62,109 nt of DNA from Brevinematales bacterium (GTDB lineage Bacteria; Spirochaetota; Brevinematia; Brevinematales; GWF1-51-8), in the NCBI GenBank assembly GCA_013177895.1, contig JABLXV010000028.1, positions 1 through 62,109 on the forward strand. The letters are read 5' to 3'. The notes under the pieces are model-generated. The model was not told where the DNA came from. It saw nothing but the letters and a program-made list of their open reading frames with translations, and made no database searches. Numbering within the stretch: position 1 is the first letter of the stretch; each line of letters begins with the position of its first letter. The position numbers and the translations under genes were made by a program. Shown here one piece after another: positions 10,181 to 53,682 of this stretch.

Positions 10181-11494
10181 GGTTCTTTCTAAAAACGAGT
10201 GGGTAAAGATGAGAAATATGAATGGATAAAATATAATAATCCATGCAAAATAAACTATTCGAGATGGCTCTGGGGATAACCGAGCCGTACTTTGTGAAGG
10301 ATATCGAATTCGACGCGGACAAGAAGAAGCTCGACATCCACATCGATTTCAGGAAAGGCGCTATGTTCACTATCACCGGAAAGAACGGCGAGGCGGTTCA
10401 GGCGAAAGCCTACGACACCGTGGATAAGACGTGGCGGCACCTGAACTTCTTCGAGCACGAATGCTATCTGCACGCGCGGGTGCCGAGGATCAAGTATGAC
10501 GACGGGATCAAGCAGGTGAAGATGCCGTGGGAGGGCATGTCGAACGGCTTCACGCTACTGTTCGAGGCGCTGCTCTTGCAGTTGTGCATGGGGATGCCGG
10601 TGTACAAGGCCTCGAAAATCACAGGCGCGTCGGACGATAAAATCTGGAAAATGCTGGAACGGTATGTTTTGGCATATCTCAAACAGAGCGATTACAGCGA
10701 TGTCACGGCGGTAGGGATCGACGAAACCTCGCAGAAGAAACATCACGATTACATCACGCTGTTCGTGGATTTGATTCGCCGGAGGACATTGTTTATCGCC
10801 GACGGCAAGGGAAGCGGGACGGTCGAGGAGTTTATCTCCATGCTGGAACAGCAGAACGGTAAGGCTGAAAATATCAGTCAGGTGAGCTGCGACATGTCGC
10901 CGGCGTTTATCAAGGGTGTGAGGGAGAATTTGCCCGAAGCCGAGGTGACATTTGACAGGTTCCATGTGATGAAGATTATCAACGATGCGGTGGATAGAGT
11001 CAGAAGGCTGGAGGTCAGGACCGATCCGAATCTGAAGGGAATGAAATATGTGTTTTTGAAAAACAATGAAAACCTGACGCCGGGCGATTTGGATAAACTC
11101 GATAAGATACGTTTTGCCGAATGCGGGAAAAAGACGTTGAAAGCGTTTCAGCTTAAAGAACTGTTCCGCGAACTTTATACGGCTGGAACCGACGAAGTGT
11201 TCGAGCGCGGATTGAAGAAATGGTATTATCTTGCGACTCACAGCAGGATCGGGGCGATTGTAGAGGCGGCTAAAACGATCAGAAGACATTGGGACGGCGT
11301 GATGAATTGGATCAAAAGTAGAATTAATAATGGGATATTGGAAGGAATTGCGTCGTTGATACAGGCGGGAAAGCGCGTGCAAGGGGTTATTCGTCACAGA
11401 AGAACTTTAAAATTATCGCGTATTTGCTGACGGGTAAAATGGACTTTTCAAGAATCAATTCAGCTTACTTACCCACTTAATTTGCGAAAGAACC
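10181..11494 (+). mobile_element. ISL3-family insertion sequence, copy 1 (1314 bp)
   Basis: Both ends carry a 26-bp imperfect inverted repeat that begins GGTTCTTTC and ends AGTGGGTAA; 21 of 26 positions agree between left (10181-10206) and right (11469-11494). An 8-bp direct repeat AAATAAAT flanks it (10173-10180 and 11495-11502), the duplication length known for ISL3 elements. It holds one transposase gene, frameshifted near its end. A second copy of the same length lies inverted at 52369-53682. The flanking duplication shows this copy moved here by itself. Confidence 0.95.
10243..11480 (+). pseudogene. ISL3-family transposase, frameshifted near the C-terminus
   Basis: Residues 1 to ~375 read normally: an N-terminal segment, then the DDE core with VGIDETSQKKHHDYITL (first Asp), SCDMSPAFIKGV (second Asp) and INNGILEGI (Glu). 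At about 11367 the sequence reads GGCGGGAAAG where copy 2 reads GGCGGCGAAAG. The loss of one base moves translation into a frame that stops at 11430, replacing the proper end (...KNFKIIAYLLTGKMDFSRIN..., stop 11478-11480). The catalytic Glu precedes the shift, so some activity cannot be excluded, but the last ~35 residues are lost. Start at the ATG of 10243, the same in both copies. Confidence 0.9.
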
Positions 11495-42110: not shown

Positions 42111-42374
42111 TTATTTTTCTGAGTATTCACTCAAACCGTGTTCGAATTCTAAAAGAAATTCGTGGATCGGAATATCTAGAGCTTTCAGAATGTTTCGAAA
42201 TTCAATGAAATCCAGTCGTCTTTCAAACGTTTCATATTTACTAACGTAGGTTTGGTCAATTCCGAGCAATTCACCTAATTCGGTTTGTGTTACATTTTTG
42301 CTGATCCGGTATTCCTTTAGTAATGAGATGAAATACCGGTATTCGGGATTAAAAATAGTTTTTCTATATGACAT
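42111..42374 (-). CDS. XRE-family helix-turn-helix regulator
   Basis: The product has 87 residues. A Cro/C1-type HTH fills residues ~15-72 (KNVTQTELGELLGIDQTYVS, then KYETFERRLDFIEF), the recognition helix being IDQTYVSKY. The gene is AT-rich compared with its surroundings and divergent from an AT-rich lipoprotein gene. Its start is only 6 bases from a TATAAT on its own strand (complement of 42381-42386), so its mRNA may be leaderless. The palindrome at 42401-42419, between the two genes, is the obvious binding site, making this protein the likely repressor of the lipoprotein and perhaps of itself. Confidence 0.85.
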   Translation of the reverse strand: MSYRKTIFNPEYRYFISLLKEYRISKNVTQTELGELLGIDQTYVSKYETFERRLDFIEFRNILKALDIPIHEFLLEFEHGLSEYSEK

Positions 42375-42393
42375 GAAACTATTATAAAGACAC

Positions 42394-42422
42394 TTGACAA
42401 ATATGCGATAATCGCATATAAT
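42394..42422 (+). promoter_or_regulatory. consensus sigma-70 promoter with 17-bp spacer
   Basis: TTGACA (42394-42399) and TATAAT (42417-42422) are both perfect consensus hexamers, exactly 17 bp apart. Transcription would start near 42430 and reach the lipoprotein start at 42456 via GGAGG (42446-42450). A promoter this strong normally needs a repressor. Confidence 0.9.
42401..42419. promoter_or_regulatory. palindromic operator inside the promoter spacer
   Basis: ATATGCGAT and ATCGCATAT form a perfect inverted repeat around one central A. It fills almost the whole spacer and touches the -10 box, so protein bound here would exclude RNA polymerase. The divergent XRE gene is the natural candidate for the binding protein. 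Confidence 0.85.
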
Positions 42423-42455
42423 AACGAGTGAAAAATCATTATTTTGGAGGTTAAT

Positions 42456-43403
42456 ATGAAGACCGGGATTAGATGTTTTAGTGTTTTAGTGTTATTTAGT
42501 ATTGGTATGTTATCTGGTTGTGCGTCAACCTCAATGAAAATGGTAAAAGGTCAGTATTATCCGGCTAAGCCTAAATGTGCGCTAGTTTATATGGGAATTG
42601 GATGTTATCGTTCTTCCTATTATGGAAGTCAATTTAAAATCAAAGATATTGAGAATTCTTTTAATAAAAGTGTAAAAGAATTCCCGATAGAACGATTGAT
42701 TAAAGCAATAAACATTCAAAACCCTAACTCGGCAATTATTTCAAATTATCAATGGGATAACAATAACTTTGAGAATGGTTACGATTCTGATGCTCTTTCG
42801 GATTATATTATATATCAACCAATAGTAGCAAGTAAAGAACTTGTAATAGGGGGAAGTTATTCGAAGGGTCATTCGGATGGTTATGATACAGGTGTGCATT
42901 ATAGTTTATCATCAAACGCCATAAAAAACTACTTAGATAAAAATGGGTATGATATAGCAATTTTTTGTTTTGTGGATATAATTGGTCCATGGAAGATGCA
43001 TGGGAGTTACGTTACTGTTGAGGTGGATCAGTGGGAAGCTAGAATTAGATTGATTGCAATTGACAATAATTCTTTAATTGTTGGTGTTGCTGGAGTACAG
43101 CGAGGAAAGGCACTTAATAATATTGGTTACGGTCTTTTCTTCAATGAATTTACTGGGAGTTCGATATATTCGAAAAATTATGGTAACTTGTTTACTTCAT
43201 TTTATTCGTTTCTTGATCAGGGGAAACTAAAGTTTGATAAAGTTTACAAAGAAAATGCTTTTGCTGCATGGAAAACTAATTCTATAGAAGGAGGAATTGA
43301 CCTAAAAATTTATAAATCTGACGATTTAATTTCTAACGAAAACATGAGTGTAAATATGGATTATATAAGTTATTATTTAAGTTCAATAATTGACTTTAAA
43401 TAA
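42456..43403 (+). CDS. AT-rich lipoprotein of unknown function, under XRE control
   Basis: The ATG at 42456 follows GGAGG by 5 bases; an upstream TTG is not needed. The product has 315 residues with lipobox GMLSGC. I recognise no domain. The chain is rich in Ser, Asn, Tyr and Lys; blocks such as SDYIIYQPIVASKELVIGGS and YDIAIFCFVDIIGPWKMHGS look like alternating beta strands. Codon use is strongly AT-biased against the neighbouring GC-richer genes, a sign of recent transfer. With the divergent regulator, promoter and operator it forms a self-contained two-gene cassette. Function open: surface exclusion, phage receptor masking and stress lipoproteins are all compatible. Confidence 0.7.
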   Translation: MKTGIRCFSVLVLFSIGMLSGCASTSMKMVKGQYYPAKPKCALVYMGIGCYRSSYYGSQFKIKDIENSFNKSVKEFPIERLIKAINIQNPNSAIISNYQWDNNNFENGYDSDALSDYIIYQPIVASKELVIGGSYSKGHSDGYDTGVHYSLSSNAIKNYLDKNGYDIAIFCFVDIIGPWKMHGSYVTVEVDQWEARIRLIAIDNNSLIVGVAGVQRGKALNNIGYGLFFNEFTGSSIYSKNYGNLFTSFYSFLDQGKLKFDKVYKENAFAAWKTNSIEGGIDLKIYKSDDLISNENMSVNMDYISYYLSSIIDFK

Positions 43404-45843: not shown

Positions 45844-45943
45844 ACCGCCCTCCGGAATATTAAATCGTACGGGATATTATATCGCGGCGTGGAAAAAACG
45901 CAAGGAAAATATGGAAACGTTCCCATGCTCCTCACCTCCAGCA

Positions 45944-46013
45944 TACGCTGAAGGCAAGCGGACGGGAGGGAACTCCGCGACGGCAGCTTGCCTTCACGCA
46001 AAGCGTGGAGGGG
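45944..46013. repeat. imperfect inverted repeat in the glycoside hydrolase leader
   Basis: CTCCAGCATACGCTGAAGGC-AAGC (from 45946) and GCTTGCCTTCACGCAAAGCG (from 45986) are imperfect reverse complements, 20 or so pairs around a ~17-base loop. It looks like a short dispersed repeat and may also form a hairpin in the leader region. Confidence 0.5.
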
Positions 46014-46079
46014 ATGCCGGGGAGCGGGAAATAATTTGCGAAAAAAGAAGGATATGTTATAATACAAACGGAGAGAAAT

Positions 46080-46340
46080 ATGCCCGAATTATGCCGGTTT
46101 CTTGGGATAATTATTTATATGTACTTCAACGACCACGACCCGGCGCATTTTCACGTGCAATACAACGAGTTCAGGGCATCGATCAGGATAAGCGATTTTT
46201 CAGTGATTGACGGGCATCTCCCGCCGCGCGTACTCGGATTGGTGGTCGAATGGGCTGAGATGCATTCAGGCGAACTGAACGGAAACTGGGAGAGTCTGGA
46301 AACGGACGGCAAGTTTAAAAAAATTAAACCATTGGTATGA
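46080..46340 (+). CDS. DUF4160 small protein
   Basis: The product has 86 residues. The family pattern is plain: FLGIIIYMYFNDHDPAHFHV, where a short hydrophobic strand runs into DH(D)PAHFHVxY, then ASIRIS...DGHLPPRVLGLV. DUF4160 proteins nearly always precede DUF2442 proteins and have been suggested as toxin-antitoxin-like modules; here the second gene overlaps by 4 bases (ATGA), as usual. GGAGAG precedes the ATG. Confidence 0.9.
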   Translation: MPELCRFLGIIIYMYFNDHDPAHFHVQYNEFRASIRISDFSVIDGHLPPRVLGLVVEWAEMHSGELNGNWESLETDGKFKKIKPLV

Positions 46341-46606
46341 GGCAAAGTATGACGTGGATTGTGAAGGCCGAATATACCGGCGGATATAAAATACGGCTCA
46401 CGTTTAACGACGGGGTTTCCGGCGAAGCCGATCTGGAAAATATCCTCAAACGCGACCCGCGCCCAATTTTCAAAACCACCGCCGACCCGGCGAATTTCCG
46501 CGCGTTCAGGGTGGAAGCCGACACGGTGGTATGGGATACCGGCCTCGACCTCGCCCCCGAGTTCCTGCGCGAACTGATCGTCTCGGACGCATCTGTCAAG
46601 GTATAA
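46337..46606 (+). CDS. DUF2442 small protein
   Basis: The product has 89 residues. The fold signature YTGGYKIRLTFNDGVSGEAD with LENILKRDPRPIFKTTADPA, then FRVEADTVVWDTGLDLAPEF, fits DUF2442 along its whole length. It overlaps DUF4160 by 4 bases, forming the standard pair. An AT-rich nuclease-HTH gene starts 5 bases after its stop and thus shares the transcript, so this pair may have gained a third member. Confidence 0.9.
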   Translation: MRQSMTWIVKAEYTGGYKIRLTFNDGVSGEADLENILKRDPRPIFKTTADPANFRAFRVEADTVVWDTGLDLAPEFLRELIVSDASVKV

Positions 46607-46611
46607 ATTAG

Positions 46612-47814
46612 ATGTATAAAATTGAAAAAAGTATTGAAAAAGCAATCGCTGGGCTAAAAGGTGGAGAATTTGAGGCTTTTTGTAGCTATTTTTTTTCAAT
46701 TGTGTATAATTATAAAGATATAGAATCGAGTAGAGATGAAAATAATCAACCTGTACGGGGAGTTGATGCATATTATCGGTTGGAAAATGGTGAATTTATT
46801 ATTTTTCAATATACTTCACAAGAAAAAGATTTGAAAACAAAGATAATTAATGATATTGAGATTCTAAACTCTGATAAACCGGATTATCAAGTATTTAAAA
46901 ACCATATAAAAAAAGTTATAGTATGTATCAATCAACCAGATCGTGGGAGTATTATTGAATATGAAAAATGTGCAAAAAAATACGGCTGGGAATTTGAGCT
47001 ATTTACACTTCATAGGTTGACTAAAATATCGATAGATAATGATGAAATTTTAAAAAAATACTTTTCTGACCTTAACTATGTTGAGAAAATTCTATATTTC
47101 GATTGTGGAGCACGGATAAAAGAAGTTAGGGAAGAAAGGAATTTACTTTCAAGTGAATTTATAGAGTTAGTAGGTTTCGGAAGTGAAAAAGAATTAATAG
47201 AGATTGAAAACCGAGAAAAGGAAGCGACTCTAGAATTTTTACAAGTTCTATCAAAAAACACCTCGGTTGAATTAGAATGGTTAAAACATGGGAAATATAC
47301 GAAATATGATATTAAATATTTTGAAACATCTGAATTGGATTATTTCATAGATAAAGAAAGACATTTTACAATATACTTCTGTTTAGAAATAACAGAAATG
47401 AATCTTTTATTCTTATATGCTTTTACTGAGAATAAATGGATTTGTCGAAAATATTTTTGCGACTTAAATTTTGATTCTTGGTTTGATGATCATAATAAAA
47501 TTAAAGACATATTTATTCAATTAAGAAAAATATTTTCTAGCTTAAAAAATTATACTTCATTTGGGAGAATAATAAGTCCAGAAGTATACCGTAGAATTCT
47601 TGGAGGTAAGGAATTTTTTAAGAATATTCCTACTATATATCAAGGAAATAATTCATGGTGGTTTGATGATATATGTGATATTTATGATAAGTACGATATA
47701 AGTATTAATTATAAGATTAGGTATGAAGATTGGTTTTTTAAACTGAAGGATAATTTCTTAAAGTATATGGATTATGAATACTACCAAAAAAAGACTAATA
47801 ACACTCATAAATAA
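46612..47814 (+). CDS. fusion of PD-(D/E)XK-like nuclease domain, XRE HTH and unknown C-domain
   Basis: The product has 400 residues in strongly AT-biased sequence. Residues 1-160 resemble a Mrr/SMEK-like restriction-endonuclease fold: GGEFEAFCSYFFS (helix with Glu20), VRGVDAYYRLENGEFIIFQY with Asp52, and QYTS (Gln66) where many family members have QxK or QVTS. Residues ~167-228 are an XRE-type HTH (ARIKEVREERNLLSSEFIEL ... SVELEWLKHGK). The last ~170 residues are unrecognised, aromatic and charged. Such nuclease-plus-sensor fusions are typical of anti-phage or anti-plasmid genes, but this exact order is unfamiliar to me. The changed catalytic Lys leaves activity uncertain. It lies 5 bases after DUF2442 with only a weak AAGG. 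Confidence 0.6.
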   Translation: MYKIEKSIEKAIAGLKGGEFEAFCSYFFSIVYNYKDIESSRDENNQPVRGVDAYYRLENGEFIIFQYTSQEKDLKTKIINDIEILNSDKPDYQVFKNHIKKVIVCINQPDRGSIIEYEKCAKKYGWEFELFTLHRLTKISIDNDEILKKYFSDLNYVEKILYFDCGARIKEVREERNLLSSEFIELVGFGSEKELIEIENREKEATLEFLQVLSKNTSVELEWLKHGKYTKYDIKYFETSELDYFIDKERHFTIYFCLEITEMNLLFLYAFTENKWICRKYFCDLNFDSWFDDHNKIKDIFIQLRKIFSSLKNYTSFGRIISPEVYRRILGGKEFFKNIPTIYQGNNSWWFDDICDIYDKYDISINYKIRYEDWFFKLKDNFLKYMDYEYYQKKTNNTHK

Positions 47815-47928
47815 ATATAAGCCAACTATATGTAAATTCGTGCAATCTGATTGTTCTCCGCGAATGCGGGGGTAGCTTCCCTCGACTGCTAACTTTCCAC
47901 TTTTCAGTTGTCACTTTCTACTTCTCAC

Positions 47929-51072: not shown

Positions 51073-51744
51073 ATGGAAAGTATTCCAAAGATAATTCAAG
51101 AATTTCGAAACACTGTAAAAAACATTTCAATTACAGATCAAACTAATGAATATTTTGAGTTATTACAAAAAATTTGGAGTACTCCTAAAATAGAAAAAAG
51201 GCTTAAATTATGTGAAGAAAGCTTCAAATATATTGAAGCATTAATAATTACAACAAAGCTTACTTTTTCCATATATGATCTTTCAGAAAAATGGAGTTTA
51301 TTAATGGATGATAATAAAAAAACCGAAAAGGCTGTAATAAAAAAAATTCAGGAAATATATCCTAATCTTGAGGCAAATAGCGATATAAAAGAATTTGGGA
51401 AGTTTGATTTATCATCAATTCCTGCACTTCAAGTTGCAGGTGAAATTTATGCTCTTAAGGGTATGAAAGAAAAAATCGATATATTAAAAGATATTGTGTA
51501 TTTCTTTAGTGATTTATTCGATTGGCGTGATTTCATAGAAAATCAATATAATGAATTAAAAATTGCCAAAACTATATTAGAGTATATTAAAAATAATCCA
51601 GGATTTCATCAGAACAAAATAAAAGCAGCTTTGGAGTTAAATCAAGATGGACGATATATAGCAGGGTTAATTAAGAGGATGGAAAGTTATAATTTAATTA
51701 AAAGAAAAAAAGAGGGGAATAATTATAATTTGTTTTTAGAATAA
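51073..51744 (+). CDS. AT-rich protein with C-terminal winged-helix-like domain
   Basis: The product has 223 residues, no signal peptide. Residues 1-150 look all-helical. From ~152 a winged-helix pattern appears: IAKTILEYIKNNPGFHQNKI, then KAALELNQDGRYIAGLIKRM (recognition helix) and ESYNLIKRKKEGNNYNLFL (wing). Such domains read DNA or, in defence genes, hold regulatory contacts. I cannot name the family. Codon use is strongly AT-biased, unlike purN/rseP upstream. The next gene starts 18 bases later and forms the second half of the cassette. Confidence 0.65.
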   Translation: MESIPKIIQEFRNTVKNISITDQTNEYFELLQKIWSTPKIEKRLKLCEESFKYIEALIITTKLTFSIYDLSEKWSLLMDDNKKTEKAVIKKIQEIYPNLEANSDIKEFGKFDLSSIPALQVAGEIYALKGMKEKIDILKDIVYFFSDLFDWRDFIENQYNELKIAKTILEYIKNNPGFHQNKIKAALELNQDGRYIAGLIKRMESYNLIKRKKEGNNYNLFLE

Positions 51745-52368
51745 AGTAATTACGGATAGTATATGAAGAAAATATTAGGACAAATTCTTTCTTCTTCTCT
51801 CGAGGATACTCAAGGGGAAATTTTTACAAAACAAGATTTAATTGATCTAGCGGAAGCAGCAAATAAAAAAGCACCAATTGATTTTAATCAACGCCATGAT
51901 CCTAAACTAGGAAAATTAGGATATATAAATAATTTTAAAGTAGTGCCATCAAGAATCCATCTAAATGAATATGATTTAATTGGTGATATATATTTAAGTA
52001 TTGATGAGATTCCTCCTGACCTAAAAGCATTCAGTTTAAGTACAATAAAACCAATTTATGGAAATAGTGATGCTAAAATTGCATTTTTTATCCCTTATCC
52101 ATTTTATCAAAATGAGGAATATCTAAAAAGTTTATTTATCGATAATGAGATAATTATTGGAAAGCATATTCAAAAAGCTGCTGAGGTACCTCTTGTAGCT
52201 TTAATTATATCTAAAATAGTATCAACTATTGTTGATAAAGTTTTTGAAAATACTGTATATCCAGTATTAAAAAGAAATTTTTCGATTATTATAGAGCTTT
52301 GGAAGAAGAGTATTGAAACTAATTTAATAATTTGGCAACAAACAAACAATTTCCAATATCAGATAATG

Positions 52369-53682
52369 GGTTCTTTCGCAAATTAAGTGGGTAAGTAAGC
52401 TGAATTGATTCTTGAAAAGTCCATTTTACCCGTCAGCAAATACGCGATAATTTTAAAGTTCTTCTGTGACGAATAACCCCTTGCACGCGCTTTCGCCGCC
52501 TGTATCAACGACGCAATTCCTTCCAATATCCCATTATTAATTCTACTTTTGATCCAATTCATCACGCCGTCCCAATGTCTTCTGATCGTTTTAGCCGCCT
52601 CTACAATCGCCCCGATCCTGCTGTGAGTCGCAAGATAATACCATTTCTTCAATCCGCGCTCGAACACTTCGTCGGTTCCAGCCGTATAAAGTTCGCGGAA
52701 CAGTTCTTTAAGCTGAAACGCTTTCAACGTCTTTTTCCCGCATTCGGCAAAACGTATCTTATCGAGTTTATCCAAATCGCCCGGCGTCAGGTTTTCATTG
52801 TTTTTCAAAAACACATATTTCATTCCCTTCAGATTCGGATCGGTCCTGACCTCCAGCCTTCTGACTCTATCCACCGCATCGTTGATAATCTTCATCACAT
52901 GGAACCTGTCAAATGTCACCTCGGCTTCGGGCAAATTCTCCCTCACACCCTTGATAAACGCCGGCGACATGTCGCAGCTCACCTGACTGATATTTTCAGC
53001 CTTACCGTTCTGCTGTTCCAGCATGGAGATAAACTCCTCGACCGTCCCGCTTCCCTTGCCGTCGGCGATAAACAATGTCCTCCGGCGAATCAAATCCACG
53101 AACAGCGTGATGTAATCGTGATGTTTCTTCTGCGAGGTTTCGTCGATCCCTACCGCCGTGACATCGCTGTAATCGCTCTGTTTGAGATATGCCAAAACAT
53201 ACCGTTCCAGCATTTTCCAGATTTTATCGTCCGACGCGCCTGTGATTTTCGAGGCCTTGTACACCGGCATCCCCATGCACAACTGCAAGAGCAGCGCCTC
53301 GAACAGTAGCGTGAAGCCGTTCGACATGCCCTCCCACGGCATCTTCACCTGCTTGATCCCGTCGTCATACTTGATCCTCGGCACCCGCGCGTGCAGATAG
53401 CATTCGTGCTCGAAGAAGTTCAGGTGCCGCCACGTCTTATCCACGGTGTCGTAGGCTTTCGCCTGAACCGCCTCGCCGTTCTTTCCGGTGATAGTGAACA
53501 TAGCGCCTTTCCTGAAATCGATGTGGATGTCGAGCTTCTTCTTGTCCGCGTCGAATCGATATCCTTCACAAAGTACGGCTCGGTTATCCCCAGAGCCATC
53601 TCGAATAGTTTATTTTGCATGGATTATTATATTTTATCCATTCATATTTCTCATCTTTACCCACTCGTTTTTAGAAAGAACC
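52369..53682 (-). mobile_element. ISL3-family insertion sequence, copy 2 (1314 bp, inverted)
   Basis: It has the same length and ends as copy 1 (GGTTCTTTC termini, AGTGGGTAA inner ends) on the opposite strand. The flanks are AGATAATG (52361-52368) and AAATAATG (53683-53690): an 8-bp duplication with one change. It lies inside a gene. The copies differ by their compensating one-base deletions and otherwise appear the same wherever I compared them. Confidence 0.95.
52383..53620 (-). pseudogene. ISL3-family transposase, frameshifted near the N-terminus
   Basis: The first ~20 codons from the ATG at 53620 read as in copy 1 (MQNKLFEMALGITEPYFVKD). Near 53555 the sequence reads ATATCGATTCGACG where copy 1 has ATATCGAATTCGACG; the missing A shifts the frame into a premature stop at 53420. 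A long frame that begins at an internal ATG (53501) carries the rest, including all three DDE residues and the intact C-terminus that copy 1 lacks (ending FSRINSAYLPT). Re-initiation at 53501 would give a 372-residue product without the N-terminal ~40 residues. Confidence 0.9.

Follow-up and report, generated by a model that had tools for sequence, protein, structure and literature searches.

The window, by which we mean the whole stretch of DNA that was analysed (62,109 nucleotides from a Brevinematales bacterium, contig JABLXV010000028.1), carries behind a glucosidase-like gene a toxin-antitoxin-like pair and an AT-rich gene, here called the orphan gene.

The AT-rich gene and the pair upstream of it

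The features of the locus, with coordinates and strand, are:

45928..47919, no strand: variable slot, from the glucosidase-like gene to the aspartyl-protease-like gene; other cargo in genome G001, with collinear flanks (L041)
46036..46063, +: sigma-70-like promoter, TTGCGA-16-TATAAT with extended -10, before dhiT; consensus match, 10/12
46080..46340, +: dhiT-like toxin, DUF4160; Pfam DUF4160 1.5e-20, NCBIfam DhiT 1.2e-19, below the equivalog cut-off
46337..46606, +: dhiA-like antitoxin, DUF2442; Pfam DUF2442 5e-9, NCBIfam DhiA 1.6e-8, below the cut-off
46612..47814, +: AT-rich orphan gene of 400 aa, with nuclease-like domain, HTH and unknown C-domain; from ORF call and composition
46612..47076, +: N-domain (residues 1-155), predicted PD-(D/E)XK-like, resembling SMEK/Avs4 effector domains; from AF2, Foldseek and SMEK profile comparison
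47107..47295, +: Cro/C1-type HTH, about residues 166-228; HTH_19 9e-4, HTH_3 0.015, PADLOC HTH_VI 2e-6
47308..47811, +: C-terminal domain, about residues 233-400, aromatic-rich, without family or homologue

The orphan gene runs from ATG to TAA over 400 codons, with a GC content of 0.26 and a GC3 of 0.19, whereas the glucosidase-like, purN and rseP genes have a GC of about 0.56-0.63 and a GC3 of 0.79-0.81; core genes lie at 55-60% GC and a GC3 of about 0.8, and the GC3 of the neighbouring genes is around 0.75-0.81. Its start is well fixed, since an in-frame TAG (46609-46611) abuts the ATG and the next Met is not reached until residue 262, and 400 open codons at a GC of 26% mean that the ORF is no product of chance. 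The segments 1-155, 156-232 and 233-400 of the protein are all comparably AT-rich, so that the gene looks like one acquired unit. As given in the preliminary description, it lies 5 bases behind the DUF4160-DUF2442 pair, with the dhiA stop at 46606, and it is a real, intact, foreign-looking gene that was most likely horizontally acquired.

No homologue of the whole protein was found in the contigs of 84,980 species (two scans) or in viral contigs, plasmids and phages, and 393 genomes of the phylum gave nothing past HTH-level noise; because these searches were run with tblastn or seeded with short exact peptide patterns, remote relatives may have escaped them. Having no relatives, the gene is a lead and not a new system. 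Chance was judged to explain the matches of residues 86-165 to several proteins (L003, L010, L011), PAS/sensor-type ones among them, that of residues 280-343 to a methylase-like ORF (L018) and one on a Priestia plasmid (H1, E=3).

The toxin-antitoxin-like pair noted earlier directly 5' of the gene was confirmed by the DUF4160 and DUF2442 matches (E=1.5e-20 and E=5e-9) and, judged by family and gene order, is of a kind already described and so not novel. This kind is dhiTA, an experimentally supported type II toxin-antitoxin in which the toxin gene comes first with a short overlap (PMC8198452). The genes at 46080-46340 and 46337-46606 have this order, the DUF4160 toxin gene standing first and overlapping the DUF2442 antitoxin gene by 4 nt; as the NCBIfam equivalog cut-offs are missed, they are probably distant members. 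DUF2442 alone is present in 117 of 296 genomes of the phylum. Consensus matching placed the best promoter-like site upstream of dhiT, dhiA and the orphan gene at 46036..46063, within a block common to the window and the sister species G002. Because the gap is only 5 nt and no terminator-like site was detected on the orphan gene's strand, the gene may be transcribed from the dhiTA promoter.

Elsewhere in the window, two further AT-rich orphan genes stand in tandem at 51073-52386 (GC 0.26-0.27, GC3 0.14-0.18), adjoining an ISL3-family transposase gene (52383-53501). This transposase gene and that at 10243-11430 are apparently two copies of the same one, with the common stretch MFTITGKNGEAVQAKAYDTV.

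Domains of the orphan protein

A profile search of the three segments recognised the HTH, while the N- and C-domains remained without a family match, giving only sub-threshold noise in the Pfam, NCBIfam, PADLOC and PHROG scans. AlphaFold2 prediction of the N-domain alone, from a single sequence, gave a pLDDT of 70.8 and a pTM of 0.70, with a core in the order alpha, beta-beta(-beta), alpha, beta, alpha, beta (H17-31/E51-56/E61-67/H71-86/E101-106/H111-123/E127-132). The motif residues are E21, D52, Q66-Y-T68 and K75; in the model, the first strand predicted with confidence contains D52, and the strand after it ends in Q66-Y67-T68. These are the two strand positions at which D and (D/E/Q)xK are found in PD-(D/E)XK enzymes. 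When an alpha-beta-beta-beta-alpha-beta core with an acidic residue on one strand and (D/E/Q)xK on its neighbour is taken as the criterion, the core and the positions of D52 and Q66 fit on this model of pLDDT 71, with Thr at the Lys of QxK.

In the Foldseek comparison with 350,542 PDB chains, the top match was the phage-defence nuclease Avs4 (8dgf), at E 8.7e-5 for the full model and 1.8e-3 for the N-domain, and other folds ranked below it; the superposition is loose (TM 0.35, rmsd 13.9) and the matched part of Avs4 was not displayed, so the match is support and not proof. Avs1-4 kill through nuclease activity (PMC12931631). The STAND NTPase and C-terminal sensor repeats that define Avs4 were not found in the orphan protein, which has 400 aa and no NTPase family match. 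Matches to Rpb5 in BFVD were judged unspecific. The PD-(D/E)XK-like fold proposed earlier for the N-domain is thus supported by the predicted core and the Avs4 match, with the profile comparison described below and with no curated family match, and no search result showed the domain to lack a restriction-endonuclease fold.

Resemblance to SMEK was assessed with SMEK_N proteins gathered from plasmids and from genomes of the phylum. E21, Q66 and K75 are invariant in a joint alignment of the orphan protein with eight SMEK proteins, where FQYTS(65-69)...K.K matches the FQVTS...K.K of SMEK without a gap, and D52 pairs with the aspartate of the SMEK GhD motif in the HMMER alignment. Comparison of the single query with the SMEK profile by hhalign scored 23.95 (E 0.004, 127 columns), higher than any of 400 shuffles, and in HMMER the query ranked fourth, beaten by 3 of 2,000 shuffles. 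Pfam SMEK_N (PF21941) does not match the N-domain even at E 10, and its curated cut-off of 27 bits is not attained; the domain therefore resembles SMEK without belonging to the curated family. The earlier view of it as SMEK-like with the lysine replaced accordingly stands for the resemblance and for the QYT at the Lys position, as in SMEK, and falls for family membership. Mrr_cat (PF04471) as the parent family was rejected, giving no signal, with 167 of 200 shuffles reaching the hhalign score.

The SMEK motif set, E (helix 1) - GhD - hhQx(T/S)(T/S) - x4-6 - KxK, is matched by E21, D52, Q66-Y-T68-S69 and K75/K77. As a post hoc pattern it turned up in 22 of 200,000 shuffles, and of 480 ORFs compared, the query and five SMEK proteins were the only ones to carry it; in its strict form it is missed by 8 of 13 SMEK sequences themselves. 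Two findings make SMEK relevant here as a nuclease-type domain: its relative with a solved structure is the 'Mrr domain' of a Kordia Mrr-APAZ pAgo (PDB 26bh, E 8.5e-42 to a SMEK-dominated profile), and guided DNA cleavage has been reported for a SMEK-APAZ/short pAgo complex (PMC10810196). With the lysine lost at the QxK position the N-domain may be inactive; SMEK complexes cleave DNA despite their Q-x-T/S, however, so this loss alone does not mean lost activity, and K75 or K77 of the next helix could take the place of the missing residue.

One SMEK gene (G120, L080 973-1836 and the neighbouring frame) is seemingly split by a frameshift or stop inside the SMEK_N domain.

The C1-type HTH of the preliminary description was recovered with HTH_19 and PADLOC HTH_VI, in scans of the HTH segment alone and with Pfam scores under the curated cut-offs, and appears weak but real. 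An NCBIfam 'VanZ' match (E 0.0026), below the cut-off and overlapping the HTH, was judged to be chance. The C-domain, which had been described as an unknown end, showed no family, none of the collections searched contained a relative of it, and structure prediction gave no usable model.

The change of the ExK lysine to threonine (QYT) and the presence of an HTH, with no relatives to show that catalysis is conserved, would suit a transcription regulator, in which a catalytically dead PD-(D/E)XK-like domain aids DNA binding, the C-domain binds a ligand, and genes are repressed or activated. We consider this unlikely, as SMEK domains with the same Q-x-T/S still occur in DNA-cleaving complexes (PMC10810196), E21, D52, Q66 and a Lys at 75 are kept, and the setting is a cargo slot and not a regulon. 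That the fold call is wrong, the N-domain being another alpha/beta fold that matches the motif by chance, is rather improbable: the model derives from a single sequence, the curated profiles are silent and the HMMER score against SMEK is modest, but Avs4 tops both PDB searches with other folds lower, and the SMEK alignment stays in register across 116-127 columns. A restriction endonuclease fused to its own controller, like CR.NsoJS138I, and left over from a type II restriction-modification system would likewise join a REase-like domain and a C1-type HTH in one protein, but it is very unlikely here, with the REase-like domain coming first, an extra 170-aa domain following, and no methyltransferase-like gene recognised by eye among the neighbouring ORFs.

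A variable slot in related genomes

In the sister species G002, a block matching positions 46031-46599 at 90% identity lies behind the same glucosidase-like gene; homology does not extend past the dhiA stop, beyond which comes an AT-rich orphan different from that of the window (L040 5637-6323, opposite strand). The G002 assembly is 73% complete in 200 contigs, with the relevant contig intact across the dhiA junction. The flanks in G001 are collinear with the window, with the glucosidase-like gene on one side and the aspartyl-protease-like gene, purN and rseP on the other, and the slot between them contains neither dhiTA nor the orphan gene but an AT-rich P-loop ATPase of 496 aa (L041 9343-10833, -). 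The gene is thus present or absent as an insertion polymorphism. None of the further dhiTA loci inspected in the genus (L043-L047) has such a gene downstream, and none of 30 loci with DUF2442 elsewhere in the phylum has a relative of it nearby.

Since G001 and G002 differ in content and the orphan gene is absent at the other dhiTA and DUF2442 loci, the slot is an exchange place for small AT-rich cargo, and the order DUF4160-DUF2442-nuclease arose by an insertion in the window's lineage. The orphan gene adjoins dhiTA by chance, in a slot that carries different, sometimes defence-like, genes in sister species. The order had been put forward as a possible novel three-gene system, and this was not borne out: the pair is the known dhiTA, and in the neighbourhood survey the triple was unique to the window genome, being absent in G002, at the other genus loci and at the 30 DUF2442 loci. 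From these comparisons, the triple would be no system. Cooperation of dhiTA and the nuclease-HTH protein on one transcript, for instance with dhiTA under the control of the HTH or the nuclease guarded by dhiTA, agrees with the 5-nt spacing, the common strand free of terminator-like sites and the best promoter-like site preceding dhiT, but has very little to commend it when G002 has dhiTA at the same locus without the orphan gene, the other genus and phylum loci lack the gene, and its composition differs sharply from that of dhiTA.

Across the glucosidase-like gene from the slot, G001 carries an AT-rich SIR2-like gene of 340 aa (L041 13968-14990, -; Pfam SIR2_2 4.5e-4, PADLOC SIR2 2.6e-5), with a GAGAS motif near the N-terminus; the matching place in the window (42111-43403) holds an XRE gene and a lipoprotein-like gene. 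In genome G003 (L045 3956-5212) the whole dhiTA pair is tandemly duplicated, 686 bp apart, and is followed by a convergent AT-rich lipoprotein-like gene. In two genomes (L131 and L132, about position 1730) a DUF2442 ORF shares 8 nt with an overlapping ORF of at least 488 aa, which may be another DUF2442-linked partner.

Proposed function and comparison with known systems

The reading that we favour, with about even confidence, takes the gene to be single-gene cargo that arrived horizontally at a genus-level swap site, joining a SMEK/Avs4-type domain, a C1-type HTH and the C-domain in a stand-alone defence or selfish nuclease. The gene would have been dropped behind dhiTA as single-gene cargo; the HTH would bind DNA, either its own operator or invading DNA, the C-domain would sense a trigger or mediate assembly, and the N-domain would act as a nuclease effector that damages DNA once activated, making the protein a stand-alone defence or selfish (anti-element) nuclease. 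Nuclease activity, a defence role and a sensor role of the C-domain are putative. This acquired-cargo reading is favoured by the composition break between the orphan and core genes, by the AT-rich ATPase in the G001 slot and the AT-rich SIR2-like gene nearby, by the 90% identical dhiTA of G002 with its different AT-rich orphan, and by the element order, Avs4 match and SMEK alignment of the N-domain. Against it stand the silence of SMEK_N at E 10 and the fourth rank among 2,000 shuffles in HMMER, the poor Avs4 superposition of a model without an alignment behind it, the catalytic Lys missing at its usual place, residue conservation without support from any homologue, and the lack of an adjoining defence-annotated gene within the window.

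A more specific and only tentative proposal is a single-gene defence system of undescribed architecture, in which a SMEK-like nuclease with a migrated or missing catalytic Lys is controlled by a C1-type HTH and a sensor/effector C-domain, the gene being replaceable cargo of a small defence hot spot beside a toxin-antitoxin pair. If active, the protein would extend the SMEK-like effector nucleases by a member with an HTH fused to it, and would show that an effector type familiar from short Argonaute and further multi-domain systems can function in a single small protein; it would also mark a hot spot where the lineage swaps AT-rich genes singly or in pairs.

Compared with known systems, the pair at 46080-46606 shares with dhiTA (PMC8198452) the leading toxin gene and the 4-nt overlap, and differs in falling under the NCBIfam equivalog cut-offs; the orphan gene is no part of dhiTA. 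Fusions of a C-protein and a REase such as CR.NsoJS138I are known (PMC3850674) and likewise join a nuclease-like domain and a C1-type HTH in a single chain, whereas the orphan protein has another domain order, an extra C-domain and no methyltransferase recognised nearby by eye. Avs4 (AVAST type IV nuclease, 8dgf) comes closest to the N-domain in structure, but the orphan protein is without its NTPase and repeat sensor and shows no sequence match to it. With SMEK (PF21941) the N-domain shares the element order, the E in the first helix, the GhD motif, and FQxTS instead of ExK with a Lys about six residues on; its hairpin is three residues longer and its N-terminus about 15 residues shorter, and where SMEK is partnered with APAZ, NTPase or TPR, the N-domain of the orphan protein is joined to an HTH instead.
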